From Acanthochromis polyacanthus (taxonomy: Eukaryota; Chordata; Actinopteri; Pomacentridae), in NCBI RefSeq assembly GCF_021347895.1, contig NC_067132.1, positions 29,889,757 through 29,953,756 of the forward strand: a DNA stretch of 64,000 nt, in the 5' to 3' direction. Below the pieces are notes generated by a model. The model was not told where the DNA came from and ran no database searches. It worked only from the letters and a program-made list of their open reading frames with translations. A program made the position numbers and the translations under genes. This document shows, piece after piece, positions 7,201 through 58,300 of the stretch (positions within the stretch are counted from its first letter, which is position 1; each line of letters opens with the position of its first letter).

Positions 7201-10200
7201 CTGTAGGAAGAGATGAACACCTGAACCTTTAAAAAACAGCTCCACTGATCAGATCTCTACTGATTTATTCAATTTTTACATAATTCAGAGTCAGGTTTTT
7301 ACACAAGAAGGTTGCTTTTAGAGAATGTTTTCAGGTTAGAATTAGATGTTCTTCTTTGTCTTTGTTGTTTAGTCTGGGTTCATAAAGCGACTTTGTCTTC
7401 TGCGTTGTTTCCAAACCAGGGAAGAAGAACAAGCTGCGTGTTTACTACCTGTCCTGGCTGAGGAACAGGATATTACACAACGACCCTGAAGTGGAGAAGA
7501 AGCAGGGCTGGATTACTGTTGGCGAGCTGGAGGGCTGCGTTCACTACAAAGTCGGTACGAAAGCAGCTTCAAGTCATCGTTCTGTTGACACGCCTCCAGT
7601 CTGGTGGCTAAAAGTTGGTCAACCATTCCAAAAGCCACCTGGGGTTACACTTGGACACATGAAAAGCAGTTGTTTTATTCTTAGATTGCCACCAAAACCA
7701 ACTGTCAACCCATAGACGGACACTTTGCATCCAAATTCATGTCTCTTGTTCTCACTTGATTTTTTTTAAAGAATTTATTGGAACGAGATGCAACGAAACT
7801 CAAAAAAAAAAATCACACGACTCGACCTTTCCAACAGTGATTGTTGTAAGTCTGTGCTGACGTATCAAATCTTGATTGTCGAGACTGTTCTGAAAAAAAT
7901 AAGACACCACACCAATAATGACCAAGATAAGGGCTTTAAAGTAAATGTTGTGAAATGACCTTGAAAGTAGCCCCCGAATCTCATAAGGTTTACTTTGTAA
8001 GAGTTCAAATCCTTGATGAGCCCCCAAAAATATCACAAGAAAAATGGTCAGGTTGGCTTTCAGTCCACATCAGCCTGTAAAGCATCGGTGGACAGTATTT
8101 ATTGTTTTTGTCAGTGGTGGCTGGTCTAGATGTTTGTGGCTAAATCTCCTGTGATTTCTGCTTCATATCTGAACTTGTTTTCCCTTTTTCCCGCAGTCAA
8201 GTACGAGAGGATTAAATTCTTGGTGATTGCTCTGAAGAATTCGGTGGAAATCTACGCCTGGGCGCCTAAACCTTACCACAAGTTCATGGCCTTCAAGGTA
8301 AACGAAATGGGAACAGGCTGCTTTATTTCTATTCCACAAGGGACCACTGGGTAAAAACGGCATTGAGGCTACATGGCATTGTTTTCATGACTGCATGTGA
8401 AAGATGGATGTAGCCATATCGAAAAAACGTGTATTATTTATTATATTTGACATTCGAATCCCAGCCAATGCTTCAGCACGAAGGGGGATTTCTGACTTTC
8501 GTGAAGGGAGAATTTCTCCAAAAGTTGTAGTATGCATACATACCAGGGTGTTGTATAACTAGTTCTGGACGTGGAGTAACCTGTAACTGCTTGTGTTCAA
8601 TCTGTAAGGGAGTCCAGAGAAAACCCAGCTTGTTGCACGTCTTTGACTTGTCATTGAACCATTGATCTGGAGTCTAACACGACAGCAGTCTTTTCAAGGT
8701 GACTGAGTTAGACAATGGTCCCTTTGGATGATAGTGAAAGGAAGACTCATGCAGGAACCAGTGTGTTCCAGTGCTAAAAGTTCCTTCCCCAACTGGGAAT
8801 CTAATTAGAGCCACAACAGTGAGATACCAGCCACATCCCAGCCATGAGACCATCATGGACCCGCTACTGGAACTAAGAGGACAGCAGTTCAAAAACAACA
8901 CCTTAACATGTGATTCCTCTTAGTTTACGGAGGTCTTTGGTTTTAAAGAAAGTTTAGACAAGATATTTTCCAATTAACTTACTGTCTTCCTCTCTGTGCT
9001 TCAGTCCTTCACTGACCTGCAGCACCGCCCCCTGCTGGTGGACCTGACCGTGGAGGAGGGCCAGAGGCTGAAGGTCATCTACGGATCCAGCGTCGGATTC
9101 CACGTCATCGATGTCGACTCCGGAAACCCCTACGACATCTACATCCCCTCACATGTAAGACTCTGTAGAACACCAAGTTTAAGACTTGGGTTAAGGTGTA
9201 GTCAGGTTAGTTTAAGGTGTAGTCAGGTTTGGTTAAGGTGTAGTCTGGTTTTTTAAGGTGTAGTCAGGTTTGTTTAAGGTGTAGTCAGGTTTGGTTAAGG
9301 TGTAGTCAGGTTAGGTTAAGGTGTAGTCAGGTTAGGTTAAGGTGTTGTCAGGTTAGGTTAAGGTGTAGTCAGGTTTGTTTAAGGTGTAGTCAGGTTAGGT
9401 TAAGGTGTAGTCGGGTTTTTTAAGGTGTAGTCGGGTTTGGTTAAGGTTTAGTCTGGTTTTTTAAGGTGTAATCAGGTTTGTTTAAGGTGTAGTCAGGTTT
9501 GGTTAAGGTGTAGTCAGGTTAGGTTAAGGTGTAGTCAGGTTAGGTTAAGGTGTAGTCAGGTTAGGTTAAGGTGTAGTTGGGTTTTTTAAGGTGTAGTCAG
9601 GTTTCTTTAAAGTGTAGTCAGGTTTAGTTAAGGTGTAGTCAGGTTAGGTTAAGGTGTAGTCAGGTTAGGTTAAGGTGTAGTTGGGTTTTTTAAGGTGTAG
9701 TCAGGTTTCTTTAAGGTGTAGTCAGGTTTAGTTAAGGTGTAGTCAGGTTAGGTTAAGGTGTAGTCAGGTTAGGTTAAGGTGTATTCGGGTTTTTTAAGGT
9801 GTGGTTAGGTTAAGGTGTAATCGGGTTTTTTAAGGTGTAGTCAAGTTTGGTTATGGTGTAGTCTGGTTTGGTTAAGGTGTAGTCAGGTTAGGTTAAGGTG
9901 TAGTCAGGTTAGGTTAAGGTGTTGTCAGGTTAGGTTAAGGTGTTGTGAGGTTAGGTTAAGGTGTAGTTAGGTTAAGGTGTAGTCAGGTTAGGTTAAGGTG
10001 TAGTCAGGTTTGTTTAAGGTGTAGTCAGGTTTGGTTAAGGTGTAGTCAGGTTAGTTTAAGGTGTAGTCGGGTTAGTTTAAGGCGTAATTTGTTGAGTTTG
10101 TTAGACAACTATAGCTGTGGTTACCGCTAGTTTATATCTCCAGGAACTGAATGGAAGTCAATGAGAAGTGATGGAAATTGTGTACAACTTTAATTTGAAC

Positions 10201-13200: not shown

Positions 13201-16200
13201 CTGCATGTCTTCACCTCCCATCCTGCTCACTTCCTGATCTTTTCTGTCCAGTCCTCTCTGTGTGTCGTTGGACTTTTCTTTCTTTACATTTGAAGGGTCT
13301 GCTGTCGTGTCATCTTCCATCCTTGATCGCTCTGGAAATGTTTGAGGTGAGAGTTGTGCTTGAGATGGAGGCGAGTGGATCTAGAGTTCAGGAGGAGAGA
13401 CGGGATCAAGGATGGGTCGCTGTGTTTTCTGACCGCCGCTCGGTTTAACAGTTTGTGTGTTTTGCGTGTGGACATCGTTTGTGTGTTGTTGTTTATTTTA
13501 ACGTCCAACCAGAGTTTCTAAAGTCCGGCCTCAGCCCCGCCCCGTCCCCACAGCGCCACAGAAACCCAAAAAACAACAAAATGCTGAGCAACGAACCGCC
13601 TGTCTGTTCCCCAAGAAAACGAAAAAACATCCTTCTAGGGTCCTGAAACCAAAGCAGATGAAACTGAGATCTGCTGCAACGACCGTGGAGTCCACATCCG
13701 CCCCAAAACCAGTCAGTTTGTGTCACAGGTCTTCACCCACCTTTAGATGTTTCCCTTTTTGTTCCTTTTAAACTCTGAATCTATTTACTGACAATAATAC
13801 ACACACAAAGACTCAAAACAGATTTCTACAAATAATGTCAGTAATTAGAAATAGAAAGGAAGGGCACCAGAATTCACCCCTTAAAGTCAGAAGAGGAACT
13901 CTAGTCTAGATTTAATTTGATCTTTTTCCATCAGAGTCTTTCTCTTTGTTTCCATGAAGCTTTGACTGGTGAAGAACAGACAACAGTTGTTGGATGAACA
14001 GTCTCTAACATCTCAGCTGCTGAAGCTGGAACTCCTTCAGAGGAGTCATAGGAGTCTTGGTGGCCTCCCTCTCTAGTCTCTTTCTTCTCGGTCTCTCAGG
14101 TCTTGAGGACGTCCTGCTCTAGTCAGATTTATTCATGTTCCATCTTCCTTCCATTTCTTAATGATGGATTTAACTGGACTCCAAGAGATCTTCAGGAACT
14201 TTAAATGTTCTTGTATCGTCCTGACTGATGCTTTTCAACAAGCTTTTCTCAGAGTTTCTTGGAGTGTTCTTTGGTCTTCATGGTGTAGTTCTATCCAGGA
14301 GAACTGATCCACCAGAGACTGGACCTTCCAGATCCAGGAGTCTTTATTCTACAATCACTGGATGAACACTTCCGCAGTCATTGATTCTGTATTTTTAACC
14401 AGTTGCTGGAACTTTGTAGAAATCTGTGAGTCTTTTGTCAAATTAAATTGACTAAGATTCAGTGTTGAAAAGCAGAGAAAACTTCTGAAGGTGGGTGAAT
14501 ACTTTTCGATCGATACTTTAGGTACAGTTCTCTCCAACGCACCAAAAATAACATCAAAATATTTCAATAAAATCCAGCCAGTGAGACAAAGGAGGACTAG
14601 TGTCTAAACTGTGGATTTCCTCGATTAAAGTCCTGTTGCTGCCTCCATGATTCCTTTGTTTCTTTCAAAACATAAATGAGACTGCAGTTTAGTTGTGATT
14701 TTTGAAGACAGGGTTCTATCTCCTCTGTAAATTAACAACTTATTATTTGAGTTTCCGACCATAATGAGACGTCCTCCGCCTTAAAAAATCCGGTTTCCGT
14801 CCATCCAAGCGTAATCCAGCAGATTTTTGCTCTAGATAATGTCCAAAACATTCTTGTTTGCGAATATTTGCTTGTTCTTTTACACTTTGTGACCATAAAG
14901 TTTAGATTTGTAGAATGTAAATCAGCAAAAAAGGATTATTTCATGAATACTTGCTGTTTTTTGAGAGGAAAATTGTGTTTTTTAGGCACTGAATGTAAAC
15001 AAAGCCGTCTTATAGCGCCTTGTGACGACATATTCATCCACTCCGCTCGCCAGCTCCCTGTAACGACGAAACGCCGTAGGTCAACGACGCCGTAAACCGA
15101 GGACCATCTGTATTATTAGCCTTGGGGGGCAGTTCCTTTTTCACTCACATCCAGGTAGCTTTGAATAATTTTTTCCCTAATAAATAAATTCATCGTTGTT
15201 TACTGGGGTTATCTTTGTCTGATATTTACTTTTCTTTGATGCTCTTAAATATAAAAATGGGGAAAATTTACAAAAAAAGTTTGAATTTGAGCGTGGGGCA
15301 AATACTTTTTTACAGCACCGTAGCTGTAGGATTCATCATTTAAACAACTCTTAGAATCCAAAAGTCTCAGGAGTCTCAGTAGCTTTTTAAAAAGAAAATT
15401 CGTGTGGATGTTTTCCATGAATGAACCGCTGTAGAGAAGTATTCAGCTGTTATGCTGTTGAGACGTTGTAGAGACGTTGTTGTGCGTGGGTCAGCAGTGA
15501 TCAGACGTCCACTCGTCTCCGTCCTGCTTCCTGTCCGGCTCTGATCCAACATCAGCCAGAAACTGCTGCAATAATAACGGAGGTGAGGAGGTCTGGAGGG
15601 ACGACTGCTGAGGTTTCTGCTCTTCCACCCTCTGTGTGGTTGTGTTTGTCTGGTTGTGTGTCTGTGGTTGTGTTTGTCTGGTTGTGTGCCTGTGGTTGTG
15701 TTTGTCTGGTTGTGTGTCTGTGGTTGTGGTTGTGTGTCCCCCTCCCATCCTGCAGCCTACATCCACTCCAGCCAGATCATGGGATGGGGAGAGAAGGCCA
15801 TTGAGATCCGCTCCGTGGAGACGGGACACCTCGATGGAGTTTTCATGCACAAGCGAGCTCAGCGACTGAAGTTCCTGTCAGAGAGAAACGACAAGGTGAG
15901 TCTGAACACACCTGAACACAGCTGAATGTTCCTGAACATAGTGAATGTACCTGAACACACCTGAACATTCCTGAGCATAGTGAACACACCTGAACACAGC
16001 TGAATGTTCCTGAAAAACACCTAAACACACCTGAACACACATGAACATAGTGGATGTACCTGAACACAGCTGAATATTCCTGAACATAGTGAACGTACCT
16101 GAACTCACCTGAAGACACCTGAATGTTCCTTGAAAACACCTAAACGTACCTGAACACACATGAGCACACCTGAATGTTCCTGAACATAGTGAATGTTCCT

Positions 16201-18126
16201 GAACACACCTGAATGTTCCTGAACATAGTGAATGTTCCTGAACACAGCTGAATGTTCCTGAACATAGTGAATGTTTCTGAACACAGCTGAATGTTCCTGA
16301 ACACAGCTGAGTGTTCCTTGAAAACACCTAAACGTACCTGAACACACATGAGCACACCTGAATGTTCCTGAACACAGCTGAATGTTCCTGAACACAGCTG
16401 AATGTTCCTGAACATAGTGAATGTTCCTGAACATAGTGAATGTTCCTGAACACAGCTGAATGTTCCTGAACACAGCTGAGTGTTCCTGAACACAGCTGAA
16501 TGTTCCTGAACACAGCTGAATGTTCCTGAACATAGTGAATGTTCCTGAACATAGTGAATGTTCCTGAACACAGCTGAATGTTCCTGAACACAGCTGAGTG
16601 TTCCTGAACACAGCTGAATGTTCCTGAACATAGTGAATGTTCCTGAACATAGTGAATGTTCCTGAACACAGCTGAATGTTCCTGAACATAGTGAATGTTC
16701 CTGAACATAGTGAATGTTCCTGAACACAGCTGAATGTTCCTGAACACAGCTGAATGTTCCTGAACACAGCTGAATGTTCCTGAACATAGTGAATGTTCCT
16801 GAACACAGCTGAATGTTCCTGAACACAGCTGAATGTTCCTGAACATAGTGAATGTTCCTGAACATAGTGAATGTTCCTGAACACAGCTGAATGTTCCTGA
16901 ACATAGTGAATGTTCCTGAACACAGCTGAATGTTCCTGAACACAGCTGAATGTTCCTGAACACAGCTGAATGTTCCTGAACACAGCTGAATGTTCCTGAA
17001 CACAGCTGAGTGTACCTGAACACTCGGTCGCCTGACGTCAGATTCTCTGCATAGTGGCAGTAGTAGTATTGCTAGTGTTAGTGAAAGTAGTAGTGGTCAT
17101 AGTTGTTGTTTTCGAAGGAGTAATAGTCGTATTAATAGTAGTAGTAATGAAAGTAGTAGCAGTATCTGTAAAAGTAGGAGTAGTAGTTGTAGTAAAAGTA
17201 GCAGTAAAGGTTGTGGTAAAGGTAATTGTAGTGATAGTAGTAGTAGTAGTAATGATAATAGTATCAGTAAATGTAGTAATAGTAGTTGTAGTGAAACAAA
17301 TACTAGCGGTAGTCATAGTAGAAGTAGCAATAGTAGTCGTTGTAAAAAGAGTAGTAGTTAAAGTAATAGCAGTAGTAGCAGTAGTGGTAGTCGTAGTAGT
17401 AATCCTAGTCCTGAACATCTGGAATTCCTGCCAATGAATGAGACTAAAGTATAAATAAATGAACTCAGAGTGAACTTGTGCTGAATCCTCCTCCTTCCTC
17501 TTCCTCCCCTTCTTCCTCTTCTCTTCCTTCGTCTCCTTCTTCTCATTCTTCTTCCTCTTCCTCCTCTTCCTCCTCTTCTCCTCCTTTGTCTCCTTCTTCT
17601 CCTTCTTCTCCTTCTTCCTCTTCTCCTTCTTCGTCTTCTCCTTCTTCCTCCTCTTCTCCTCCTTCGTCTCCTTCTTCTTCCTCTTCTCCTCTTTCATCTT
17701 CTCCTTCCTCCTCTTCTCCTCCTCCTTTATCTTCTTCTTCTCCTTCTCCTTCTTCTTCCTCTTCTCCTTCTTCGTCTTCTCCTTCTTCTCCCTCTTCTTC
17801 CTCTTCCTCCTCTTCTCCTCCTTCGTCTTCTCCTTCTTCTCCTTCTTCCTCCTCTTCTCCTCCTTCGTCTCCTTCTTCTTCCTCGTCTCCTCTTTCATCT
17901 TCTCCTTCCTCCTCTTCTCCTCCTTCGTCTTCTCCTTCTTCCTCTTCCTCTGCTTTTCCTCCTTCGTCTCCTTCTTCTCCTCCTTCTTCCTCTTCTTCCT
18001 CTCCTTCATCTTCTCCTTCTTCTTCTCCTCCTCCTCCTTCAGGTTTTCTTCGCCTCGGTTCGCTCTGGAGGCAGCAGCCAGGTCTTCTTCATGACCCTGA
18101 ACAGGAGCTCCATGATGAACTGGTAA
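1273..18126 (+). CDS. tnik: TNIK (TRAF2/NCK-interacting kinase, MAP4K/GCK-IV family), C-terminal 547 residues, 13 exons; 5' part lies outside the window
   Basis: Exons: 1273-1454, 1557-1671, 3437-3583, 4979-5087, 6056-6232, 6317-6460, 7420-7554, 8197-8297, 9005-9154, 11379-11538, 15756-15895 and 18043-18126 (stop TAA), all AG/GT-bounded and in phase without frameshift; the small acidic exons come first (12 segments are certain, an alternatively spliced one may be missing between 3583 and 4979). The product starts in the linker ([13 protein letters not shown], then a Ser/Glu-rich acidic stretch) and ends with a complete citron homology (CNH) domain from about [12 protein letters not shown] to the terminal MMNW. 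The N-terminal kinase domain is not in the window. GCK-IV kinases act in JNK, Wnt/TCF4 and cytoskeletal signalling; CNH binds small GTPases such as Rap2. CNH sequence alone does not cleanly separate TNIK from MINK1; the neighbours eif5a2, rpl22l1 and slc7a14 decide for tnik. Two co-duplicated copies (tnika/tnikb) may exist in teleosts. Confidence 0.9.
1672..3436 (+). other. tnik intron with a three-copy repeat
   Basis: Apart from the repeat at 2100-2840, this intron holds an AT-rich stretch with the phrase 'gctaataa(a/g)tgc(c/t)aca' twice (about 3068 and 3202). No exon or RNA gene recognised. Confidence 0.6.
2100..2840. repeat. Three-copy dispersed unit, two direct and one inverted
   Basis: A ~150-bp unit containing agaaagatgtttcaccatgc, then ctccaac, ttgctcctctgttcac and tctgagcc(g/a)tgctg occurs at about 2100-2255 and 2418-2560 in direct orientation. 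It recurs in reverse complement at about 2700-2840 (gaacagaggagcaagttgga). The inverted pair could fold in the pre-mRNA. Confidence 0.75.
3584..4978 (+). other. tnik intron, AT-rich
   Basis: Very AT-rich from about 3,800 to 4,480, with homopolymer runs. A short 20-bp tandem repeat lies at 4583-4680. A segment at 3671-3715 resembles an exon (AG before agcatccaggagac) but runs into TAA and was not used. Confidence 0.6.
4583..4680 (+). repeat. 20-bp tandem repeat, about 5 copies
   Basis: Unit cctgtttgattctgccccgt, repeated head to tail with one or two substitutions per copy, in a tnik intron. Confidence 0.9.
5088..6055 (+). other. tnik intron containing an inverted copy of the preceding exon's splice acceptor
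   Basis: Bases 5683-5718 are the reverse complement, with about three mismatches in 36, of 4956-4991, which spans the acceptor and first bases of the upstream exon. The phrase 'gagcccccgaaaatgttacaag' region (about 5310) has a relative at about 8017 in a later intron, so a diverged dispersed repeat is present as well. Confidence 0.65.
5683..5718 (-). repeat. Inverted copy of tnik exon 4979 acceptor boundary
   Basis: Read on the minus strand it contains gatctgcagtacgggatggg, identical to the acceptor plus exon start around 4971-4990. Pairing of the two in pre-mRNA would hide the splice acceptor. Confidence 0.85.
6545..7135 (+). pseudogene. Relic of a LINE (L2/Rex-like) reverse-transcriptase ORF 3' end and 3' UTR
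   Basis: Conceptual translation, interrupted by stops, shows the familiar distal ORF2 phrases [20 protein letters not shown] and DYCHLHLL. It is followed by the typical LINE 3' tail 'aaaaagaggttcttaatctcaatggga' (first part around 7086-7112). It lies in the tnik intron 6461-7419, in the same orientation as tnik. Decayed and non-functional. Family assignment is from memory of teleost LINE tails. Confidence 0.65.
7555..8196 (+). other. tnik intron, no gene
   Basis: Contains a diverged copy (about 7,800-8,110) of the sequence also present at about 5,130-5,400, recognisable by gagccccc(a/g)aaaat(a/g)t(c/t)acaag. Otherwise nothing seen. Confidence 0.5.
8298..9004 (+). other. tnik intron, nothing recognised
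   Basis: Unique-looking sequence of balanced composition. No exon, repeat family or RNA gene recognised on either strand. Confidence 0.5.
9175..10090 (+). repeat. 21-bp minisatellite, over 40 copies
   Basis: Head-to-tail units of the form ggttaaggtgtagtcaggtta with variants (tttaaggtgtagtcgggtt and others). The array starts about 20 bases after the donor of the exon ending at 9154 and fills the first kilobase of that intron. Confidence 0.95.
10380..11095 (+). repeat. Degenerate TGAA/GTGA tetranucleotide-derived repeat
   Basis: About 700 bases dominated by tgaatgaatgag and gtgagtgagt words. On the minus strand it yields His/Ser-rich open frames (HSFIHSFI), which are artefacts. Confidence 0.9.
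13880..14520. repeat. Dispersed teleost repeat ending gtgggtgaatactttt
   Basis: Block with phrases I recognise from repeats common in fish introns (ctcagctgctgaagctggaact, gaggagtcataggagtcttgg, ttcttaatgatggatttaact, ttggtcttcatggtgtagtt and the terminal gggtgaatactttt). No protein is evident. Class uncertain; probably a non-autonomous DNA transposon. Confidence 0.5.
15118..15322. mobile_element. Tc1-like MITE, one end only
   Basis: Ends with ggggcaaatactttttt then acagcaccgta. This is the diagnostic terminus of abundant teleost Tc1/mariner MITEs (TACAGTGCTGTGAAAAAGTA in the other direction). The opposite terminus is not seen within 1 kb upstream. Confidence 0.65.
15901..17020. repeat. 19/20-bp two-type minisatellite, about 55 copies
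   Basis: Two unit types alternate irregularly: a 20-mer ctgaacacagctgaatgttc and a 19-mer ctgaacatagtgaatgttc. The array begins inside the donor region of the tnik exon ending at 15895. Because 19- and 20-mers mix, all minus-strand frames stay open for hundreds of codons ([18 protein letters not shown]), which are artefacts. Confidence 0.95.
17050..17405. repeat. GTA-trinucleotide microsatellite
   Basis: About 350 bases of imperfect (gta)n with ggt/att interruptions. It lies directly between the 19/20-bp minisatellite and the polypyrimidine tract. Confidence 0.9.
17478..18042 (+). repeat. 565-base polypyrimidine tract abutting the last tnik splice acceptor
   Basis: Almost pure cttctcctcctt pyrimidine sequence that ends in the acceptor ccttcag of the last coding exon (18043). 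It contains scattered G (cttcgtc) but very few A. The long Ser/Pro (plus) and Lys/Glu/Arg (minus, 323 codons) frames reflect composition. Confidence 0.95.
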
Positions 18127-23093: not shown

Positions 23094-23124
23094 GCATTCT
23101 GGTAGGCTGGCTACCACCAGCCTG
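23094..23124 (+). repeat. Left 9-bp target duplication and terminal inverted repeat
   Basis: GCATTCTGG at 23094-23102 followed by the 22-bp terminus (23103-23124). Within it AGGCTGG pairs with CCAGCCT across a CTACCA loop. Confidence 0.85.
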
Positions 23125-23356
23125 AATCTCAAGTGAGATACAGGCTGGGTACCTGCTATTCATTTTCTTGTAGGGGTGGAGCAGTTTAAAATTTTCCACA
23201 GCCGTTGATTGGGCGCTGCATATGTCAGTCAGTCTGGGGCAGTTGAAGCTCACAGCCAATCGTGTCACTGCTAGCCGCTGACGTAAATGCAGAGCGACGG
23301 CAGCACCACGAAAAAGAATCATTGCTGTGTTTGCTCATGTGTTTGCTTCTTTCGCC

Positions 23357-26300
23357 ATGTCGCCGGACGATTCTTGCCGTTTATGTAAAGTAAACATGAG
23401 GGAAAGTGGACCCCGTGTTTATGCACACTCCACAGATATGTTTGTGTCAAAAACAACGCCGACCATATCAGATAGGTTAGCGATGATGGACCTGATAGTC
23501 ACCCCGGAGCCGGAGCAGTCAAACAGATGCTGCCAGCGCTGCACCTCCACACTCGGTCGGCTTGAAAAAGACTTTCCTTTATTCAGGCAATGGGAAGAGA
23601 ACGTCCGGTTAAGCAGCGTATCGAAAAGACAACGTGAACCCACCCCGTCCAAGACACCGAGGACTTTGAAAAAGACCTGCCCAAACCCACCGAGTCCACT
23701 AGCTTGTTCCTTCGGAAACACGACAACAAAGGTAACGCTTCTTCTCAATTGTTCTCGTGTCTTTGATTAGATGCATGTTAAGTACATTAACTTAACCGCG
23801 CTACAATCTCACGATGAACAATGTAACGTTAGCAGTTGTTTAAGTCACTTTACTTGACTTATATGCCAATAAGAAATAACAAAGATAACGATTTGCAGTT
23901 TATATTGTTGTCTGAGACAATCTGGAGAGGGGAGGACATTTGAATCCACCCCCACAGTTGTCTGTTGCGGTAGATTCCAGCGCTTCACTCTTTTATTTGA
24001 CCATAATGTCAACAATCCATCCCAAACCTGGTTGGGCCATAAAGTACACGTGTTTATTAATACATTACGTTTATTTATTCAATGATATAAACAGTCAATT
24101 TCTTCAAGACAATGCATTATCAATATCATGCCTATTTAAGTGCACTAAAACCTAATTGAGGTTTAAAATATTCAATACAATTAAAATGTAACCAATCCCA
24201 GAAGTGTTTGTTTTTGACAGCAAACAAGAATTGCTCACTAATACTTTGACTTTGTTAAAGTAGCCCTTGTAATTATATTGTTATTTGATAAGTTGACCTA
24301 GAGCACGCTCTTAATATTATTACTGTGACTTGAGTTGTGATAAACGGACCACTTATAATAAACAATATTTATCATCTATAGGCTGGCAAAAGGATTGAGT
24401 CCCTGAACTATGCCTACACTCTCTGCGCATGCTTTTTGTAATATGCACTGATCAAAAGAGTCAATTAGAAACTACTGTTAATCTCCCCAATCATAAAAAA
24501 ACATAGCTTGATGACAACCATTTCTAAAATGACAAAAGCACTTCAACCATAACACTAATGTGTATGATGACACTAAGTGTATACTTTGTGTATAACTAAG
24601 AATATTTCTTTCAGGTTTCTATCAATTATCCAACTCAAACACTGACGAGGGAGTGCCATCCTGAGGAAGATCCCATAATTAAATCCATAGCTCTGAAGAG
24701 ATGGAAAGAGGCTGCCAGTCATGCACTGAAGCATCGTCACCTGCAAGACGAAATCAAAGATGAAGTCATCAAGTTAATAAGAAAAGAATGCGATGTACTG
24801 TGCTCTCGCAAGTATGACTTCATTCTGTGGAAGTCTAAACCGGCAGACCTCAAGTCATTCTCCTTCAAATGTTTAAGAGATGACCTCCATCGGCTTGCTC
24901 CCTTTCTACTTTCATTTTTCAACTGTGTCACAAACAACAACGACTTAGCTAGCTGTACTGCTGCAGCCATTGCAATAAGAGGCAGAAAACCGCAGCTAGC
25001 AGCATTATCGTATTGGATCAACACAGTTCTCCAGTATGGCGGAGCAAAAAAGTCTGTCTTCAATCGCCTCTCAAAATTGTCGATCACCACATCCCATAGG
25101 AAAGCAGTTAAAAAGCAACACGAGTTGGCACTTGGCTGTGGGGCTGATTTTGTAGAATTTAAAAGTGGCTTGAAAGCTACAGACACTGAACTGTCAGAGG
25201 GATCAGAAAGCCTTGAGGACTTTCATCTCACAGGTGAGGGAGAACTGTACCCCACATGAAACACATTTACCTTGTCAGTTATATTTTGCTCCATTACTAA
25301 TTTATAAATACATGTGTTGTGCATGGATAGAGAGTCTGATAGTCATTTTAACTATCTTGAATGAAATTCCAGAATAGGTGTATTTGTATATGTTTATCAA
25401 TATGTACATGTGTTAATCTAATGTTCTTTAATACCAATTATGCTTTTAAACAGATGAAAACCTCACAACAGCCCCCAGACATGAAGAGAGTCCTGTGACC
25501 TGCCCACCATCATACCAAATAATTATGGACAACCTGGATTTTTTGTACACACTCACAGCCAGTCCATCAACAACACCAACAAGAGTATACACTGGATACA
25601 CCATCTTGCAGTCAAAGACCGTGTACCTACACATCACTTCTCTAACATCAAACCAACAACAGACATTCAACAGTACAATCTGAAATCCTCACTTCCTCAG
25701 CGGAGCACTCAGGCTTTAATGCGCAGGGAATTTATTGTTCTTGCCACTAGAATGCTGACAAAGTACATGTCAGTATTCGAAAGCTTTGGAGAGTCAGTGG
25801 TTAATCACATTCCTCATCAGTGTTCCAGTGAAATGTCAGCAAGATCAACTGATGTAAGTTGGAACATATTGTATTTTTTCAACACTGCATACATCTCTGA
25901 TGTACTCTTTCCTCTCTAAAGTTCCCCTTAGGCCTCTTTTTTAAAAATGAGAACCAGAGAGGTGACTTAGTGGAAGTCTTGAGAGAAATTCAGCAAGAGT
26001 AAGTAAAAAAGTAAATTAAGATCCGATCTGTATTGTATATGTATCTATTAATCTGTCCATCTATCCACCAGGCACATGCTCAAAGACGCTGATTGTGTGC
26101 AACACTTACTAATTGGAGGGGACCGTCTCACAGAGGCTAACTGTCGCAATGTGCAGTGGGGATTTTCAGACGCAGATACTAAGGAGGAAAGAATGGAGGG
26201 AATGCATTTTAAATTTGAGGACTGGCATGCTATCAGAGTTCTGTTTGAGGTGAACGACCATATCATAAACTATTTGGTTAATTGAAATTATATTTAAAGA

Positions 26301-29125
26301 CAAACACAAGTAACAGTCCATATAACTACACATATGTGTTGCATGTTGACTTTGTAGATCCATCACAAGATCTTTTTCAAAGAGTCCACCACAGACCATG
26401 GCACACTATTTGCGAACATGACCAAGTTGAGGTAAGACTACAGACGTTGGCAATGCTGTATAAAGTACTTCTGGGAAAAGTTAAAATCACCAACTGAAAA
26501 GTAAATTAAGTAAATGTTCATTGTAATGTATTTTTCTAGAATTTTAAAAGCAGGAAAAGTAATTCAAAATATCACATCACATCCATGTACCTTGGCCACT
26601 TTTTTTTTTTTAAAGTAGACATCACAAATATGAGATGAAAAATATGAGGTAACATAAGGTCAACTCAAGAAACATCAGTTTAAAAACTTAAACCAGAAGA
26701 TGCAAGGTCTACTGTGTTGTTGTAATGAGGAAGTACTCTGCAATAGTGTGCATTTTACTCTGGGAATATTATGAACTTAATGTGTAAGTTATGATTGTAG
26801 AATGTGTCTAAAATAATACTTAAGCTCAGTATTGAAGTATTTTTAAACTCATAACTACACCACATTGCTTCCTTATTATTGTGATCACTTACACATTGAC
26901 AATTACATACAAACATTTGAAACTTTAAATTTTTTTGTGTATTAACAGTCTTTAATGCTTCCCACAGTTTCTGATGACTCAATCAACTGTGAACATGGCT
27001 GTTCTTTGTTCTGGGATGGGAAATGCAGACATCATGAATTCAGCTCTGCTGTTCCCGGGGATGTTGGTTGTGACATTGGCAGGGTATTGTGTTTTCAACT
27101 ATGAATTGTATGAATGTGATGTTTGCTTGCTTACTTACATTATAAGTAATGTTATGATATTTAGTTTGAGAATGTGAGAGTCGAGTGCAGTAAGGGAGTG
27201 AGTGCATTGAGTGACTGAGTGCACTGACATAAGGTGCAGATGGGCAACAGAGAAAATTAACTGTTGCGCAGTGAGAAAATGAATGAGAAGTTTCCCTTAC
27301 AAAGAATGTTCTTCAACTGCAGAAAGAAACACAAGACATTGATATATGTGACCTACACTACATTGACATAGTATGTCATCCCAGGTGCAGCGCTGCCAAG
27401 AGTGGACCTCATTCAGCATTCAATGCTTACAGGGACTTTGTGATCAAGGACACAACAGCCCTATTCCTAGCAGCTGTGATTGAGCATCTTGGTTTTCTTC
27501 ATGTCACAGGTAAATCTGCAATTACCAGAAATTAAGCGGATGTTCATCCATTATTTTTTCAGTGATGCATGACAAAACTATGTCCCACATTAGTACAAAC
27601 ATGTTAGCATTGGTTTGGAATACTCCTGATTACCTGGTCATATAATTAGAATGTCAACAAAAAGTTATTTTATGTCATTGAAAGCAAAATGAAACATGTA
27701 TAAAGTATGCATTCATTCAACACAAATATATTTGTTATTTATTTAATTTTAATGATTTTAACCAAGAAGTAAGTAAAATCATAATTCAGTCTGTTAAAAA
27801 AGATAGAACATTGCTTTGAAATTTACCAATAAAAAGTAGGATATTTAGAAATGTTGACCCACTATATGAACATAAAAAAATGAGCTCTTACAGCACTAAG
27901 TATATATGTTGTACATGATCATATTGTTCTTGTTCACAAGTTTTACTTGTCAGTCCTTTAAAAAAATAATTATATATATATATATATATTGCATTTAGTA
28001 ATATTCTAATTATTGGACATGCCTATTTTTTAAAATAGTTTTCATTTTTTTCCAATTTAGATGATTAAACTATTATTTGAAATAAATCTGTGTGGAATCA
28101 ATGTTTAATTTACAAGTTTATCTTGAATGCCATTATGTAAATAAAATCAGGATATTTTCTATACTTTGTTTATCCTGTTAGATTGTCCTGAGTCCCTCAT
28201 ACCACAGCACATCAAGGAGGCCTCTCCAGAAGCAAGAAGATCATGGTTCAACAAATTAACAGCTGAAATTGTGGACAAATATGTTCTTCTTCCTGGCATC
28301 ACAGAAGCTGCAGAGTCTGCTAGAAAAGCATCTGCAACACCGGTTCTAAAGAATCAGTTCCCATGTCGAATGGAGGGTTGTTCACGCACATTCACATATT
28401 ACAAAAGCAGACTAACCCATGAACAGAAAATGCACAACCTGGTTATTCCAACTGACACCACCCCAGCCATCAGCTCAGATCGCGATCACAAGTATGAACA
28501 CACTGTTGCCAGATTGGGTTTCAGCTTCATTCTTTTGGACTTTATGGATGCAGTAAAGGAAGGAGACGGCGAAAGGCTGATGCGTCTCTACACAGTTGCT
28601 CTGTTGTTTTACAAAGCATATGGACATACAAGCTATGCTTACAGTACGTTCATGCTTACTGTACAACTGAATGCCACGTTGTCTCCACAGGTTGCTCACA
28701 GTCTCATGTGGAACAGATTCTGGAGCACCAGGGGAGGCAAGGGACGAAACATTCCACTAGATTTGCATCTGGAGCACTTAAATGGATTTTTGAAATCTTT
28801 CCTGAAGGGCCTTGGGCCTAACCTAAATGAGACTTCAGCAGCCAGAATAAGCAGGTCCATTGCTGTCTTCAAAGAAATGATGGCCGGCACCGATTTGGAA
28901 ATGGGAATATCGAGGCAAACTGGTGCTCATCATGTGGACATGACCAAAGACATCCTCACCTTGGTAGACACACTGCAAGAGGCAGAGCTTTTTAAACAAA
29001 AAGCAGGTCGTGTCTATGCTGCCTTCCCTGGTTTCCAAAGAAACCTACTGTCAAAACTGGATCCAAAGGCACTTTGGAAGTGGATGATGAGCAAGCTCAG
29101 TGAATGGCGTAGTGTCCCTTTGTAA
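23357..29125 (+). CDS. DUF6589-type transposon protein with ZAD-like and C2H2 zinc fingers, ~930 aa, 8 exons (probable transposase; one frameshift)
   Basis: Exons 23357-23731, 24615-25233, 25454-25853, 25922-25998, 26072-26249, 26358-26431, 27385-27509 and 28182-29125; all splice phases agree. The start is the ATG in gccATGtcg; an upstream in-frame ATG exists at 23327. Exon 1 encodes a ZAD-like finger (CRLC ... CCQRC). Later exons carry the phrases I associate with DUF6589: YQIIMDNLD, LIGGDRLTEANCR, FEDWHAIRVLF, STTDHGTLFANMTKLR and NRFWSTRGGKGRNIPLDLHL. The last exon also contains one C2H2 finger (CRMEGC ... HEQKMH). Acidic residues in DNLD, GGDRLT and FEDWH could form a DDE-like centre; this is inference. 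Exon 3 lacks one base at the T-run 25539-25544, so the copy is broken there or mis-sequenced. Faces the RecQ gene tail to tail inside the same terminal repeats. Confidence 0.8.
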
Positions 29126-29274
29126 AGCTTTTGAGACATTTCAATCATTATTGTTGGCATTGTAAATAGCTATATATTTAAACAAGCGATTTCTGTTTTA
29201 AATTTATTAACATTTTATTAAAACTATTTTTTCCTTCAAACCTTGATTTGGTTATTTGAGTTTTCAAGTGACAC

Positions 29275-29313
29275 AATAAAGCATATATTGAGTTTAACAA
29301 TAGAATTTTTATT
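29275..29313. promoter_or_regulatory. Back-to-back polyadenylation signals between converging transposon genes
   Basis: AATAAA at 29275-29280 for the plus-strand DUF6589 gene, and TTTATT at 29308-29313 (AATAAA on the minus strand) for the RecQ gene, 150 and 42 bases beyond the respective stop codons. The two transcripts would overlap at their 3' ends. Confidence 0.6.
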
Positions 29314-29354
29314 CAAGGTGACATGGACAACAGTTATTTACATTAGTTCAGAAA

Positions 29355-31752
29355 TTAATCTGAGAGGGGGAGCAAAGACAAGCCTGATGCAATGCTGCTT
29401 AATGACTTGGTAGTGTCTTCATCCTCATCCTGAAAATCAAAGTATCCGGTGAAGTCTATATCAGGTGGCAAATACAGTTCTTCACAAGTGTCTGGGAAGT
29501 CACACAAATCAAAGTCTTTAAACACTTTGTGAACGATCCGGAGAATTTCCTGGCCATGTTTTATGTCAAATACAGGAAGATTGCTCATAATGTCAGTTAT
29601 GTTAAATATTTCAGGAAGGCTTTCAATAACTGTTTCAATTAGCACATTGCTGAAACCAGTGCAGAGTGAGACATTTGTGTACAGGTGTTCATCTGGTGGA
29701 ATTAGACTGTCCCTATACTTCTCCAACAGCTCTTTGACCTGTCCCTGTTCATGCAATGTGACTTTTCTGCATCTGACAGGTGATAGATTCTTTTTTGACA
29801 TTTCAAAACTGGGTGTAGCTACAGAGCAACAGTCAGAGTTACATTTGCATACTGTATGGCAAAAAGTACAGCAAGAATGTCCCGGCTTGATACTAGATAC
29901 CTCTTCCTCAAAATGTGAATATAGGGCCTTCCTAAAACACCCATTTAGGCTTTCTTGAAGAACCGTCTTTGCTGCATTGTCAGTGTTGGCAACCTGTTTG
30001 TTTGCGTAAAGAACAGCATGAGCAGGAGAGCCATCTCTGCCTGCTCTTCCAACCTGCTGGAGAATGGCCTCTGGGTCCTCTGGTAAGCCATACATGATCA
30101 CATGGGAGACCTTGGGGAAATTTAGGCCAACTCCAAGTGCTGTAGTTGCCACAGCCACTCTGCAGTTCCCTTCTCCGTTAATTGAAGACAGTACCCTACT
30201 CTTGTTTACAGGTAGAGTGTGGCTGTGAAACATCCCAATAAGGAGATTGTCACCTTTTTTCTCTTCGCCTACCCAGGCACTGTCCCCAAGTTCAGACTTC
30301 AGGTGGAGGAATACTCTTGTCACAGTGTTTATTGTACGGCAGTATATAATGACTGGTAACATATCCAGTCTTCTCTCTTTCAAGTTCTTCACCAGCCAGT
30401 CGAAGCAGTCTAGAGAGTCTGTCACAAGCCGCCTTACAGCAAGTCTAATGTTGGGTCTGTTGGGGCTAACAATAATGTTGACTGCATTCTGGAAGTGTAG
30501 CCGTCTTCTCACAATGTCTCTTGAGTGCAAATCAGCTGATGCAGTCAAAGCCAATACAGGTGTTCCTGAAGAAAAACATACACACATTCAATACCTCAAT
30601 AACACTGAAATAATTTTCAGGGCAGGCAGATCACCACATTTTTGCAATATTTAATTACAGTGTATACATAGTATGATATTTAAGCAGTACTTTGAAAAGA
30701 GCTACTTTAAAATAAATAGAAGACAATACTTAATCACTGCTATATATATTGTAATGTCTTACTATAAGACATGGTTTTTAATGTGATACATCATTGAAAG
30801 GTTAAAACCTGTATATTTAGAGTATATATATATGTATATCTAGAGATTAAGTCATCAGACTTTCATCTGTAGTACAAAATCACAGGTAGATAGTGTTACA
30901 GATTACCAACCTGGTTTGACGATTGCTCGAAGTTCCCCCAACCTTGCAAAGCTTTCTCTGAAGGCCTTTTGTCCTCTCCCCGCATTCCCCCTGTTTGAAA
31001 AGAGAAAAACACAGGTATAGCTTAGAAATGTTCAATATGTCCTAAGGAAGTATTTGGCGTGTGTATTTCACATTTTGTCACAATTCTGACTGGAGCTTCA
31101 ACTACTTTAAATAAGTGGTTTGGATGTGCTCACCAGAAGTTTAGACAGTAGATTTAAAGTGAAAAGTAAAACGCTATCTCTGCCACAGTAGGTACAGGTA
31201 TAACGATATAAGTATTAAACACACCTCATCTTTCTACATACACACGCTCCCCTTCTGACACTAATTAGTTTATATTAATAACACTTACCACTTGTATGTA
31301 AGATGGACTTCATCCACGACGATGCCTATAAGGTTGGTCTTGTATGCTTCGGTGGATAGCATGTTCTCCCACTTGGCGCTTAGCCATGCCTCGGGGCTGC
31401 CAAACACCACCTGGTACCGGCAACTCTTTATGTCTTTTTCTTCCCCGAGGCCCAACTGAGTCGCAGAAATCCCGAGGTCGGCTGCTTCCTTTATCTGATC
31501 CTCTATCAAGGCAATCAATGGCGACACTACCACAACAACAGGGGTCTTGATAGATCCGATTTCCTTCGCAACTAACGGAGCTAACTGGTAAATTAGACTC
31601 TTGCCAAATCCCGTGGGCAGTAAAGCTAATACATCTTTCTTTTTGTTGACAAAAGCTTCTAAGGCCAAACGCTGTTCTTGTTTTAAAATAAACGGTCTTT
31701 CTAAACTATTCAGAACTCTGTCCAATGCTTGGTCGAACGCAGCCGCCGCCAT
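29355..31752 (-). CDS. RecQ-family DNA helicase encoded by the transposon, 584 aa, 3 exons
   Basis: Exons on the minus strand: 31752-31289, 30990-30911, 30565-29355 (stop at 29355-29357), GT-AG and in phase throughout. The start ATG lies in aagATGGcg. Superfamily-2 motifs in order: Q-type KQEQRLALEAF, motif I LLPTGFGKS, Ia VVSPLIALIEDQ, II VVDEVH (Val instead of the usual Ala of DEAH), III LALTASA, IV VIIYCRT, V VATTALGVGLNFP, VI QQVGRAGRDG. A Cys-rich zinc-binding region follows (CCTFCHTVCKCNSDCC). No HRDC or exonuclease domain is evident, and the 180-residue acidic C terminus is not recognised. RecQ enzymes are ATP-dependent 3'-5' helicases; here it would plausibly process transposition or repair intermediates (inference). 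The frame is completely intact, suggesting recent activity or selection. Unlikely to be a host recql gene given length, flanking repeats and partner. Confidence 0.88.
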
Positions 31753-31917
31753 CTTTTTTTGTTATGAACAACCCATCATGCATTGCGCGTAGTCGCTTAG
31801 TGTGCGTCATCGTCTAACTGTCCCTCCCCGTCCTGTGATTGGATCCCTGACTCAGGGACAAATTCAACCCCAGGTCGCCAGACTGCCTAGTAAACGAAAT
31901 GACAATGAGTGCACAGG

Positions 31918-31948
31918 CAGTCTGGGTATTCCCAGACTAGCATTCTGG
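31918..31948 (-). repeat. Right terminal inverted repeat and 9-bp target duplication
   Basis: cagtctgggtattcccagac then ta (31918-31939), a hairpin AGTCTGGG/CCCAGACT with a four-base loop, followed by GCATTCTGG at 31940-31948 matching the left flank exactly. Confidence 0.85.
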
Positions 31949-34735: not shown

Positions 34736-37057
34736 ATGAATGTGGGGCGTGTAATGCAGCTCTTCTTTCGCCCGGGTAAAGCTGGGGAAGAGGAAGACAG
34801 CGAGCCAGAGTCTGACTTGGAGAGTGAGGACTTTGACGATGACGTGGTGGATCCGTCCTATGTTTTGGACGAGGAAGGAGAGGAAGAACAGGAAGAAGAT
34901 GAGGATCTGACAGCAACGCTGCATGCTTTTCAGGGTCCAGCGCCGAAGAAGCGGAGGAAGCTAGTCGGATCCAATTCAGCGAAAAGGAAGCTAGTCGGAT
35001 CCAATTCAGTGAAAAGGAAGCTAGTCGGATCCAATTCAGCGAAGAGGAAGCTAGTCGGATCCAATTCAGCGAAGAGGAAGCTAGTCGGATCCAATTCAGC
35101 GAAGAGGAAGCTAGTCGGATCCAATTCAGCGAAGAGGAAGCTAGTCGGATCCAGTCCAGCGAAGAGGAAGCTAGTCGGATCCAGTCCAGCGAAAAGGAAG
35201 CTAGTCGGATCCAGTCCAGCGAAAAGGAAGCTAGTCGGATCCAGTCCAGCGAAAAGGAAGCTAGTCGGATCCAGTCCAGCGAAAAGGAAGCTAGTCGGAT
35301 CCAGTCCAGCGAAAAGGAAGCTAATTGGATCCAGTCCAGCGAAGAGGAAGCTTGGCACACCCACCCGGACCTCCCCCACCCCATCTACGCCCACCCGGAC
35401 CTCCCCCACCCCATCTACGCCCACCCGGACCTCCCCCACCCCATCTACGCCTACCCCTACCCCATCTACGCCCACCCAGTCCAGATCTCGGCTGGCTCAG
35501 ACATCAGAGTCGGAGTCGCAGTCTGATCCTTGGAAGACGGAGAAGGATCCTGACTCTGTTCCAGATATAAGCCGGTTCCAGCCACGGAGACAACCCGGAA
35601 TCCAGTTGGAGACACTTTCCACCCACAGTCCGAAAGAACTTTTTCAGTTGTTTTTTGCTACCGACACAGTCTTGAAAATGTGCAAATACACCAACAAGCA
35701 CGCTGCAAGGAACAAGGAGTTGGGGAAGAAGTACAAATGGGTTGACGTAGAAATGGATGATCTGTACAAGTTCTTCGGTCTCCTATTCTACATGTCACTG
35801 GTGTCACTGTGCAGGATCCAGGACTATTGGAGACAGAATCACATCTTTTATGTGCCGTTTCCTGCCAAAGTGATGCCCAGGGACAGGTTCCAGACCATCC
35901 TTTGGAACATCTACCTCAGTGATCTTGAAGAGGATGAACAGAATGACAAGAAGGGAACACCAGGCCACGACAAACTGGCCAGAGTCAGGCCTCTGTATGA
36001 AGCCATCCGCTGTGCCTGCCAGGCGTACTACCACCCAAAGAGGGAGCTGGCCGTGGATGAGAGGATGGTGGCCGCCAAGGCCAAAACTGGCATGAAACAG
36101 TACATGAAGGTCAAGCCGAATAAATGGGGCATCAAACTTTTTGTACTGGCTGAGTCAAGCAGTGGCTACACCATCCAGTTCGACATCCACACCGGCAAGA
36201 CTGGAGCTATACGTCACCATGGGCTGGCCTATGATGTGGTCATGAACCTGATTCAGAAGTCCTCTCTAGGCACCGGGTACCATATTTACATGGACAATTT
36301 CTACACTAGTCCCAGACTGTTCAAGGACCTGACCAGCATGAAGTTTGGAGCGTGCGGCACCTACAGGGAGGGCAGGAAGGGATTCCCCAGAGTGAGGGAA
36401 AACGATTTCACCAGAGACAGTGAGAGAGGTTCTGTGAGGTGGATCAGGCAGGGCCAACTGCTTTTTGTGAAGTGGCTGGACACACAGGAGGTGTCCATGT
36501 GCTCCACCATCCATCCTGCATTTTCAGGTGACATGGTGGAGAGAAGGATGAAGGATAAAGATGGATCCTGGACTACCAGAAGGATCCCCTGTCCCACACC
36601 GGTCCTGGCCTACAACAAGAACATGGGCAGGGTGGAGCAGTCGGACAAGCTCATCCAGTACTACTCCACCCTCAGAAAAACCGCTTGCTGGTACAAGACC
36701 CTGTTGCTGCACTTTCTGGACATTGCAGCAACGAACGCCTACGTCTTGCACTGTGAGCTGAGCAGCGTGAAGTCGAGGCAGCCCATGACACACAAAGAGT
36801 TCATGACGGTGCTGGTGTGTCAGCTCTGTGACGTGGACATGGAAGGCAATCCCCGGAGCAGGAAAAGTGATCACATTCCCGTAGCCATCAGTGAAGTCCA
36901 GGAGTCAGCACAGAGAGCCCCCAGAGGCCGCCTGAGGTGCAAACGCTGCCTCCTGGAGGACGACGTAAGGAGAGACACATCCTGGAAGTGTCAGGCCTGT
37001 GAGGTGCCTCTCTGTCTTTTGACGAACAGAAACTGTTTCTTTCAGTGGCATAAATAA
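34736..37057 (+). CDS. piggyBac-type (PGBD) transposase, 773 aa from this start
   Basis: Single long exon preceded by a strong acceptor (ttttgttttgtgacag, ends 34719), so one or more 5' exons are likely; the first in-exon ATG is 34736. Domains: acidic N terminus (about 15-75), 13 tandem KRKLVGS(N/S)(S/P) repeats (about 80-205), Thr/Pro-rich linker, then the piggyBac DDE domain. Catalytic positions: first Asp in AVDERM, second Asp in IYMDNFYTS, third in GRVEQSD, where piggyBac usually has GGVD, so the third acidic residue is Glu with the next Asp retained. The C terminus is Cys/His-rich (RCKRC ... WKCQAC ... NCFFQWH), the usual piggyBac zinc finger that binds terminal DNA. No TTAA-flanked terminal repeats were found near it, so it may be an immobilised or co-opted copy. 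Polyadenylation signal at 37219-37224. Confidence 0.88.
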   Translation: MNVGRVMQLFFRPGKAGEEEDSEPESDLESEDFDDDVVDPSYVLDEEGEEEQEEDEDLTATLHAFQGPAPKKRRKLVGSNSAKRKLVGSNSVKRKLVGSNSAKRKLVGSNSAKRKLVGSNSAKRKLVGSNSAKRKLVGSSPAKRKLVGSSPAKRKLVGSSPAKRKLVGSSPAKRKLVGSSPAKRKLVGSSPAKRKLIGSSPAKRKLGTPTRTSPTPSTPTRTSPTPSTPTRTSPTPSTPTPTPSTPTQSRSRLAQTSESESQSDPWKTEKDPDSVPDISRFQPRRQPGIQLETLSTHSPKELFQLFFATDTVLKMCKYTNKHAARNKELGKKYKWVDVEMDDLYKFFGLLFYMSLVSLCRIQDYWRQNHIFYVPFPAKVMPRDRFQTILWNIYLSDLEEDEQNDKKGTPGHDKLARVRPLYEAIRCACQAYYHPKRELAVDERMVAAKAKTGMKQYMKVKPNKWGIKLFVLAESSSGYTIQFDIHTGKTGAIRHHGLAYDVVMNLIQKSSLGTGYHIYMDNFYTSPRLFKDLTSMKFGACGTYREGRKGFPRVRENDFTRDSERGSVRWIRQGQLLFVKWLDTQEVSMCSTIHPAFSGDMVERRMKDKDGSWTTRRIPCPTPVLAYNKNMGRVEQSDKLIQYYSTLRKTACWYKTLLLHFLDIAATNAYVLHCELSSVKSRQPMTHKEFMTVLVCQLCDVDMEGNPRSRKSDHIPVAISEVQESAQRAPRGRLRCKRCLLEDDVRRDTSWKCQACEVPLCLLTNRNCFFQWHK
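34950..35345 (+). repeat. 30-bp coding minisatellite in the piggyBac-type ORF
   Basis: Thirteen head-to-tail copies of a 30-bp unit with core aggaagctagtcggatcca, encoding KRKLVGSNSA or KRKLVGSSPA. The basic KRK cores look like repeated nuclear-localisation or DNA-contact signals. A second coding repeat (acccggacctcccccacccc) follows at about 35,370-35,470. Confidence 0.95.
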
Positions 37058-57065: not shown

Positions 57066-57540
57066 AACTTAAAACCACAGATTTCTCCAGCTCTAGGTCC
57101 AGCTCCTCCGTACAGTGTTTCAGTCCATCACCTCCTGGACGCTTGGAGCCAGCAGAAAGCCTTTATTCCCTTAAACAGAAAAGCCTGTTGGCCTCGGCGC
57201 TGCTCTTTCTGTCAGAACATCTGGATTCGGTCCCGTTAGCTCATCTGTTGCGTATAAAACACGTAGCCTCAGGAATGCGTCCACCTTCAGCTGCTGCTGG
57301 TAGCGTCTCCAGATAGACAGAACTCTAGAAGTCTGCAGTCGTGTTCATGTATGTTTAACGTACGAGAACATCGGATGGAAGCAGCGTGGTCAGGTGGAAA
57401 TACAGAAGCAGAGAAAACATGTTGCTCTGCTTCAGGAGGAGAGTCCTGGTGTAAAAAAATTCATCTTTATGTTTCTTGGTGGTTGTTTAATCTCTTTATT
57501 GTTGTTGTTTTTGTACTTTTGGGGTTGTTTTATAACTTTA
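57066..57540. other. Intergenic, nothing recognised
   Basis: Non-repetitive sequence of balanced composition with two short overlapping open frames but no splice signals, start context or recognisable protein motif. In mammals CLDN11 lies between RPL22L1 and SLC7A14; no claudin motif (W-GLW-C-C) was found here. Confidence 0.5.
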
Positions 57541-58300
57541 TAGTCATTTAATGTCTCTTTGCAGTAATTTAGTGTATCTTTGTAGTTATTTTATGTATCT
57601 GTAGTTGTTTTGCGTCTCTTTGGAGTCATTTTATGTCTCTTTGTAGTTGTTTTGTCTCTTTTTAGTCATTTTATGTCTCTTTGTAGTCATTTTGTGTCTC
57701 TTTGTCATTATTTTGTGTCTCTTTGTAGTCATTTTATGTCTGTGGTTGTTTTGTTTCTCTTTTTAGTCATTTTCTGTCTCTTTGTAGTTGTTTTGCGTCT
57801 CTGTCGTCATTGTATGTCTCTTTGTAGTCATTTTATGACTCTGTCATTATTTTATGTCTCTTTGTAGTCGTTTTGTGTCTCTTTGTAGTCATTTTATGAC
57901 TCTTTGTAGTTGTTTTGTGTCTCTTTGTAGTCATTTTATGACTCTTTGTAGTCATTTTGTGTCTCTTTGTAGTCATTTTATGTCTCTTTTGTAGTCATTT
58001 TGTGTCTCTTTGTGGTCATTTTATGTCTCTTTGTAGTTGTTTTGTGTCTCTTTGTAGTCATTTTATGACTCTTTGTAGTCGTTTTGTGTCTCTTTGTAGT
58101 CATTTTATGACTCTTTGTAGTCGTTTTGTGTCTCTTTGTAGTCATTTTATGACTCTTTGTAGTTGTTTTGTGTCTCTTTGTAGTCATTTTATGACTCTTT
58201 GTAGTCATTTTGTGTCTCTTTGTAGTCATTTTATGTCTCTTTTGTAGTCATTTTGTGTCTCTTTGTGGTCATTTTATGTCTCTTTGTCGTTCTTTTTTGT
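57541..58300. repeat. 21-bp minisatellite, about 36 copies
   Basis: Head-to-tail units tctctttgtagtcattttatg and tctctttgtagttgttttgtg. A decayed continuation runs at 58,735-59,115. The related reverse-complement tract is at 61,090-61,520. Confidence 0.95.

Follow-up and report, generated by a model that had tools for sequence, protein, structure and literature searches.

A DUF6589- and RecQ-encoding, probably AcademH-type DNA transposon in the genome of Acanthochromis polyacanthus

A 64,000-bp stretch of the Acanthochromis polyacanthus genome (NC_067132.1, positions 29,889,757 to 29,953,756; hereafter the window) contains an 8,837-bp DNA transposon, in which a gene for a DUF6589 protein and a gene for a RecQ-type helicase face each other. 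A direct sequence check placed the element between perfect 9-bp repeats GCATTCTGG, and the chance of matching 9-mers at one fixed pair of ends is 3.8e-6. An earlier sequence-only reading had described a DNA transposon flanked by perfect 9-bp direct repeats, and this description is supported by the element, its target-site duplications (TSDs) and its genomic copies. The element very probably represents a full-length copy of a cut-and-paste transposon of the AcademH type that was active very recently.

Genes and termini of the element

The plus-strand gene encodes a product of 930 residues, and all seven of its introns are of the GT..AG type in 7/7 full copies of the element. The protein matched DUF6589 (PF20231) in Pfam with E 2.5e-35, a value scored on a gene model containing one spurious exon. 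An extra exon at 26968-27083 was rejected, as in relatives 26431 is spliced directly to 27385, which preserves the frame. In the window copy, one single-base frameshift, absent from the six other full copies, immediately follows DNLDF. Residues 576-930 are a 100% match to the annotated A. polyacanthus protein P0159.

The minus-strand product is 100% identical to the annotated protein P0028 of the same species. The RecQ helicase partner named in the sequence-only reading was confirmed by DEAD, Helicase_C and ResIII domains (Pfam, E ≤ 0.1) and by the best PDB sequence match, WRN (residues 30-373, E 1.7e-33). The element helicase shares the helicase core of the host RecQ helicases WRN, RECQ1 and BLM but differs from them in that no RQC, HRDC or RecQ zinc-binding domain was detected in the Pfam scan at the same threshold. 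Both genes are spliced and convergent, as had been claimed; the coding regions do not overlap, however, and end 229 bp apart. Judged from the poly(A) signals at 29275 (+) and 29203/29214/29308 (-), only the untranslated 3' ends of the two genes may overlap.

Both tips of the element are palindromic and can fold into hairpins of 8 and 9 pairs, in agreement with the self-complementary ends noted before. The 22-bp terminal inverted repeats of that reading proved imperfect, since only 15/22 first positions match between the ends (hand count from an alignment). The regular feature is instead the motif [CT]AG[GT]CTGG, present at +1 and inverted at 15 of both ends; the left end has two extra sites (+39 and +128) and the right end one (+55). 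Elsewhere, it was found once in the 8.3-kb element interior and nine times in 55 kb outside the element. Paired inverted binding sites would be a simpler reading of the tips than functional hairpins. A CCAAT box was present near each start codon, as proposed for both ends.

Table 1. Features of the transposon in the window (positions counted from the first base of the window).
Feature	Position	Strand	Remarks
Left 9-bp TSD GCATTCTGG	23094..23102		sequence match
Entire transposon, 8,837 bp	23103..31939		six further full-length genomic copies
Left terminus: TAGGCTGG at +1, inverted CAGGCTGG at 15-22	23103..23124	+	motif scan
Subterminal motif CAGGCTGG, element position 39	23141..23148	+	motif scan
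Subterminal motif CAGTCTGG, element position 128	23230..23237	+	motif scan
Putative CCAAT box	23256..23260	+	~100 bp upstream of transposase start codon
DUF6589 transposase gene (likely)	23357..29125	+	eight exons, 7 introns
Transposase exons 1-4	23357-23731, 24615-25233, 25454-25853, 25922-25998	+	third exon frameshifted in window copy
Transposase exons 5-8	26072-26249, 26358-26431, 27385-27509, 28182-29125	+	
Codon of predicted catalytic D1 (DNLD)	25528..25530	+	structural models
Codon of predicted catalytic D2 (GGD)	26121..26123	+	directly after strand 4
C2H2-like finger PCRMEGC...H...H within DUF6589 protein	28361..28438	+	labelled by eye, no Pfam match
Codon of predicted catalytic E (LEHLN)	28772..28774	+	structural offsets
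RecQ-type helicase gene, 584 aa	29355..31752	-	frame whole in window copy
Helicase exons	31752-31289, 30990-30911, 30565-29355	-	
Putative CCAAT box	31838..31842	-	upstream of helicase start codon
Subterminal motif CAGTCTGG, 55 from right end reading inward	31878..31885	-	motif scan
Right terminus: TAGTCTGG at +1, inverted CAGTCTGG at 15-22, reading inward	31918..31939	-	motif scan
Right 9-bp TSD GCATTCTGG	31940..31948		sequence match

Outside the element, the window holds a 30-bp tandem repeat at 34955-35352 (13.3 copies, 97% matches), the unit of which is a multiple of three, and further minisatellite arrays at 9189-10086, 15911-17023, 57536-58287 and 62581-62812.

Copies and target sites in the A. 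polyacanthus genome

The sequence-only reading had proposed a search for further copies with the same termini. The exact 28-bp left end occurred 81 times in the genome (41 + 40), with 0 occurrences of a backward control, and the 40 left-end candidates scored, the most similar of 83, were all 100% identical over 228 bp. A search with the last transposase exon revealed seven near-identical matches and one at 68%, and two full copies, L042 and L043, were located in this way. The copy sample consisted of the 40 scored loci and three full copies (window, L042 and L043), roughly 38 left ends lying outside it.

All 43 sampled copies had both ends. The TSD was 9 bp long in 40/43, 10 bp in 1/43 and absent in 2/43 (L039 and L040). 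Because 41/43 two-ended copies carry 9- or 10-bp duplications, the observation exceeds chance. L049 and L050 likewise share flanks, so the independent TSD sites number 40.

Short, internally deleted forms made up 36 of the 43 copies: 32 of 818 bp, two of 806 bp, one of 817 bp and one of 1,027 bp. The 818-bp form joins 23103-23748 of the window to 31767-31939 with a 1-bp overlap. Twenty-seven of its 32 copies were identical, and the mean divergence of all 32 from the commonest form was 2.7e-4 per site, which understates the spread of the family, the scored copies being the most similar ones. The remaining seven full copies (8,815-8,840 bp) were 99.67-99.99% identical at ungapped positions. Among them, the transposase frame was whole in 5/7, the helicase frame in 3/7 and both in 2/7; L042 was full of single-base indels, which look like assembly error. 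These sequences point to a recent burst of activity of the element.

L039 and L040 are full copies with identical flanks and no TSD, the former located 252 kb from the start of contig C9 and the latter 78 kb from the start of C4. Because the flanks are identical, the two probably represent a single event, a duplication after rearrangement. The window copy and L039/L040 have similar flanks, at first read as one repeat target; a shared target preference may explain the likeness. The distribution of left ends was uneven, with 12/81 located on C22 (genome G000), and ten of these 12 fall within the initial 9.8 Mb. If C22 does not exceed C21 (32.6 Mb) in length, about 2.8 left ends would be expected on it, giving a Poisson probability of 3e-5 before correction for multiple chromosomes; local hopping or a recombination-poor region are possible causes. 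Two left ends at G000:C2:13037502 and 13038885 share one direction, are separated by 1.38 kb and perhaps belong to nested or tandem copies.

The 40 nine-bp target sites (39 independent) gave the symmetrised consensus AAWTRnW-SYnnWnnRS-WnYAWTT, a palindromic preference with A/T-rich shoulders. The target information was 5.18 bits versus 1.03 ± 0.19 bits in 2,000 random flank draws (maximum 1.90), and a leave-one-out analysis of 31 sites placed 24/31 within the top 5% of the background. An isolated T/A preference of 0.32 bits, apart from the inner palindrome, was seen on each side at the 15th base outside the TSD, the outermost symmetric position examined.

Predicted transposase fold and related elements

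Two AlphaFold models of DUF6589 relatives displayed an RNase H-like DDE/D transposase fold with conserved D, D and E residues, and the P element and hAT (Hermes) transposases were among their best structural matches. In the models, a helical insertion precedes the last acidic helix of the RNase H-like core. The DUF6589 protein is thus likely the transposase, as the sequence-only reading had suggested when it called for a structure prediction. The predicted catalytic triad consists of D in DNLD, D in GGD and E in LEHLN. The first two had been among the acidic candidates named earlier; the third, in FEDWH, was not retained, as it follows strand 5 and the structural offsets indicate the E of LEHLN.

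Foldseek with both models returned no match at E ≤ 0.001, the first model likewise had none at this threshold among viral structure models, and no DUF6589 relative was found in the viral contigs scanned. A PDB sequence profile search yielded only one chance zinc-finger match (E 0.9). Pfam at E ≤ 0.1 reported DUF6589 alone for this protein, with no Kolobok, MULE, hAT or P domain.

A decayed relative of 7,193 bp was identified on C18; its pieces of DUF6589 are 35-56% and those of the helicase 42-78% identical, and the convergent layout is kept. Its tips TAGCCTAGCC match at 10/10 positions and it is flanked by a perfect 9-bp TSD CCGCGAGGT; among the ~720 x 1,000 end pairs scanned, these ends ranked first with a score of 19, ahead of a runner-up at 16. 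The two elements are divergent yet alike, and therefore the genes, their layout, the 9-bp TSD and the TAGNCT tips go together.

DUF6589 relatives were found in fish, lancelets, a hydrozoan and a mussel (27 matches in one protein search and 41 in another, overlapping). In Mugilogobius chulae, DUF6589 and helicase proteins have consecutive locus tags (P0148/P0061). Further possible pairs come from contigs of equal size: P0162/P0033 (7,067 bp), P0003/P0073 of Branchiostoma belcheri (316,285) and P0167/P0104 of Clytia (1,489,935). Judged from locus tags and contig sizes rather than from the loci themselves, the pairing probably exists in the goby, the lancelet and the hydrozoan.

Probable classification and proposed mode of transposition

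The element was compared with several known superfamilies. MuDR elements have TSDs of about 9 bp, the length found here, and no MULE transposase domain was detected by Pfam at E ≤ 0.1. P and hAT elements resemble the damselfish element in the predicted RNase H-like core with its helical insertion, a common fold and not a sign of membership; they differ in their 8-bp TSD, not seen in the 43 copies, and in the lack of a Pfam sequence match, and they are not known to encode a helicase. Kolobok and KolobokH elements duplicate TTAA, whereas the damselfish TSD is 9 bp, and no TTAA duplication occurred in the 43 copies. AcademH is a lineage of the Academ superfamily, and its name reportedly goes back to Kojima 2020 (Mob DNA 11:15), by its title a report from animals and fungi. 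According to a description in PMC10045372, AcademH elements encode a helicase and have 9- or 10-bp TSDs, while AcademX elements encode a nuclease and have TSDs of 3 or 4 bp, a difference that seems tied to the encoded enzyme. The damselfish element has the RecQ-type helicase with DEAD and Helicase_C domains, 9-bp (rarely 10-bp) TSDs and a DDE/D transposase, the last by predicted fold and conserved residues, not by chemistry. It is unlike AcademX, its relative within one superfamily if the AcademH assignment is right: none of the 43 copies had a 3-4-bp TSD and Pfam at E ≤ 0.1 found no nuclease domain in the two element proteins, the only ones scanned. Passages in other papers ascribe DEAD plus Helicase_C domains to AcademH, KolobokH or Helitron and place AcademH in fungi at low copy (PMC10799480), and report Academ from zebrafish, medaka and stickleback (PMC4746887) and from bivalves (PMC10294476). 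The assignment to AcademH, made from published descriptions and not from transposase sequences, is strong.

The sequence-only reading had proposed a superfamily without a name, characterised by the DUF6589/RecQ pair together with hairpin ends and a 9-bp duplication. No paper on DUF6589 appeared in the literature searched, and the plan is common to two divergent elements; yet a helicase together with a 9-bp TSD and its 10-bp variant fits the AcademH description, and that lineage, with animals and fungi as its reported hosts, was already published in 2020 (PMC10045372), which leaves a new superfamily with little probability. KolobokH likewise combines a DDE/D transposon with a RecQ helicase, and in a rhodophyte Kolobok such a helicase lies on the complementary strand (according to a passage in PMC9587614), but the TSDs and the Pfam result for the transposase make independent uptake of a helicase by KolobokH or another known superfamily highly improbable.

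Two further alternatives concern the role of the helicase. It could be a passenger that the element acquired by chance from a host RecQ gene and that contributes nothing to transposition: its frame is broken in 4/7 full copies, versus 2/7 for the transposase, and the dominant short copies carry neither gene whole. However, short copies can draw on proteins supplied in trans, the indels of L042 may be assembly error, and the gene pair recurs in the same arrangement in the divergent C18 element and probably also in goby, lancelet and hydrozoan, so that a mere passenger is improbable. The terminal palindromes might instead be single-strand hairpins processed with the helicase, in a peel-and-paste or Helitron-like manner, rather than paired double-strand binding sites. 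Both tips do form 8-9-bp stems in an element that encodes a helicase, but within each end further copies of the motif stand unpaired, and the precise 9-bp TSDs and the predicted DDE/D fold point to double-ended joining; we give this version only a slim chance.

For the AcademH-type element, the following course may be proposed. The DUF6589 DDE/D transposase probably recognises [CT]AG[GT]CTGG, as an inverted pair at each tip and at the inner sites, would cut both ends and would join them to the target with a 9-bp (rarely 10-bp) stagger, insertion favouring palindromic sites whose shoulders are A/T-rich. For the RecQ-type helicase, the probable task is to open or remodel DNA, either at the element ends or while the excision gap is being repaired. 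Failed gap repair may have produced the internal deletions, one deleted form then spreading. It is conceivable, but in our view rather unlikely, that a hyper-mobile 818-bp derivative still draws transposase and RecQ in trans from some of the full copies in which both frames are whole, and that RecQ enables the 9-10-bp stagger, as opposed to 3-4 bp in the nuclease-bearing sister lineage.

AcademH itself was already named; the additions of this analysis are the apparent recent burst, the predicted DUF6589 catalytic assignment, the palindromic target preference and the end architecture. DUF6589, listed by Pfam as a domain of unknown function, reads here as a DDE/D transposase for which a candidate triad can be named. 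The near-identical full copies, of which two out of seven keep both frames intact, and the uniform 818-bp derivative constitute a system for probing the role of RecQ in a cut-and-paste transposon and for asking whether the helicase sets the stagger length, and such numerous near-identical copies open the little-studied AcademH family to test.

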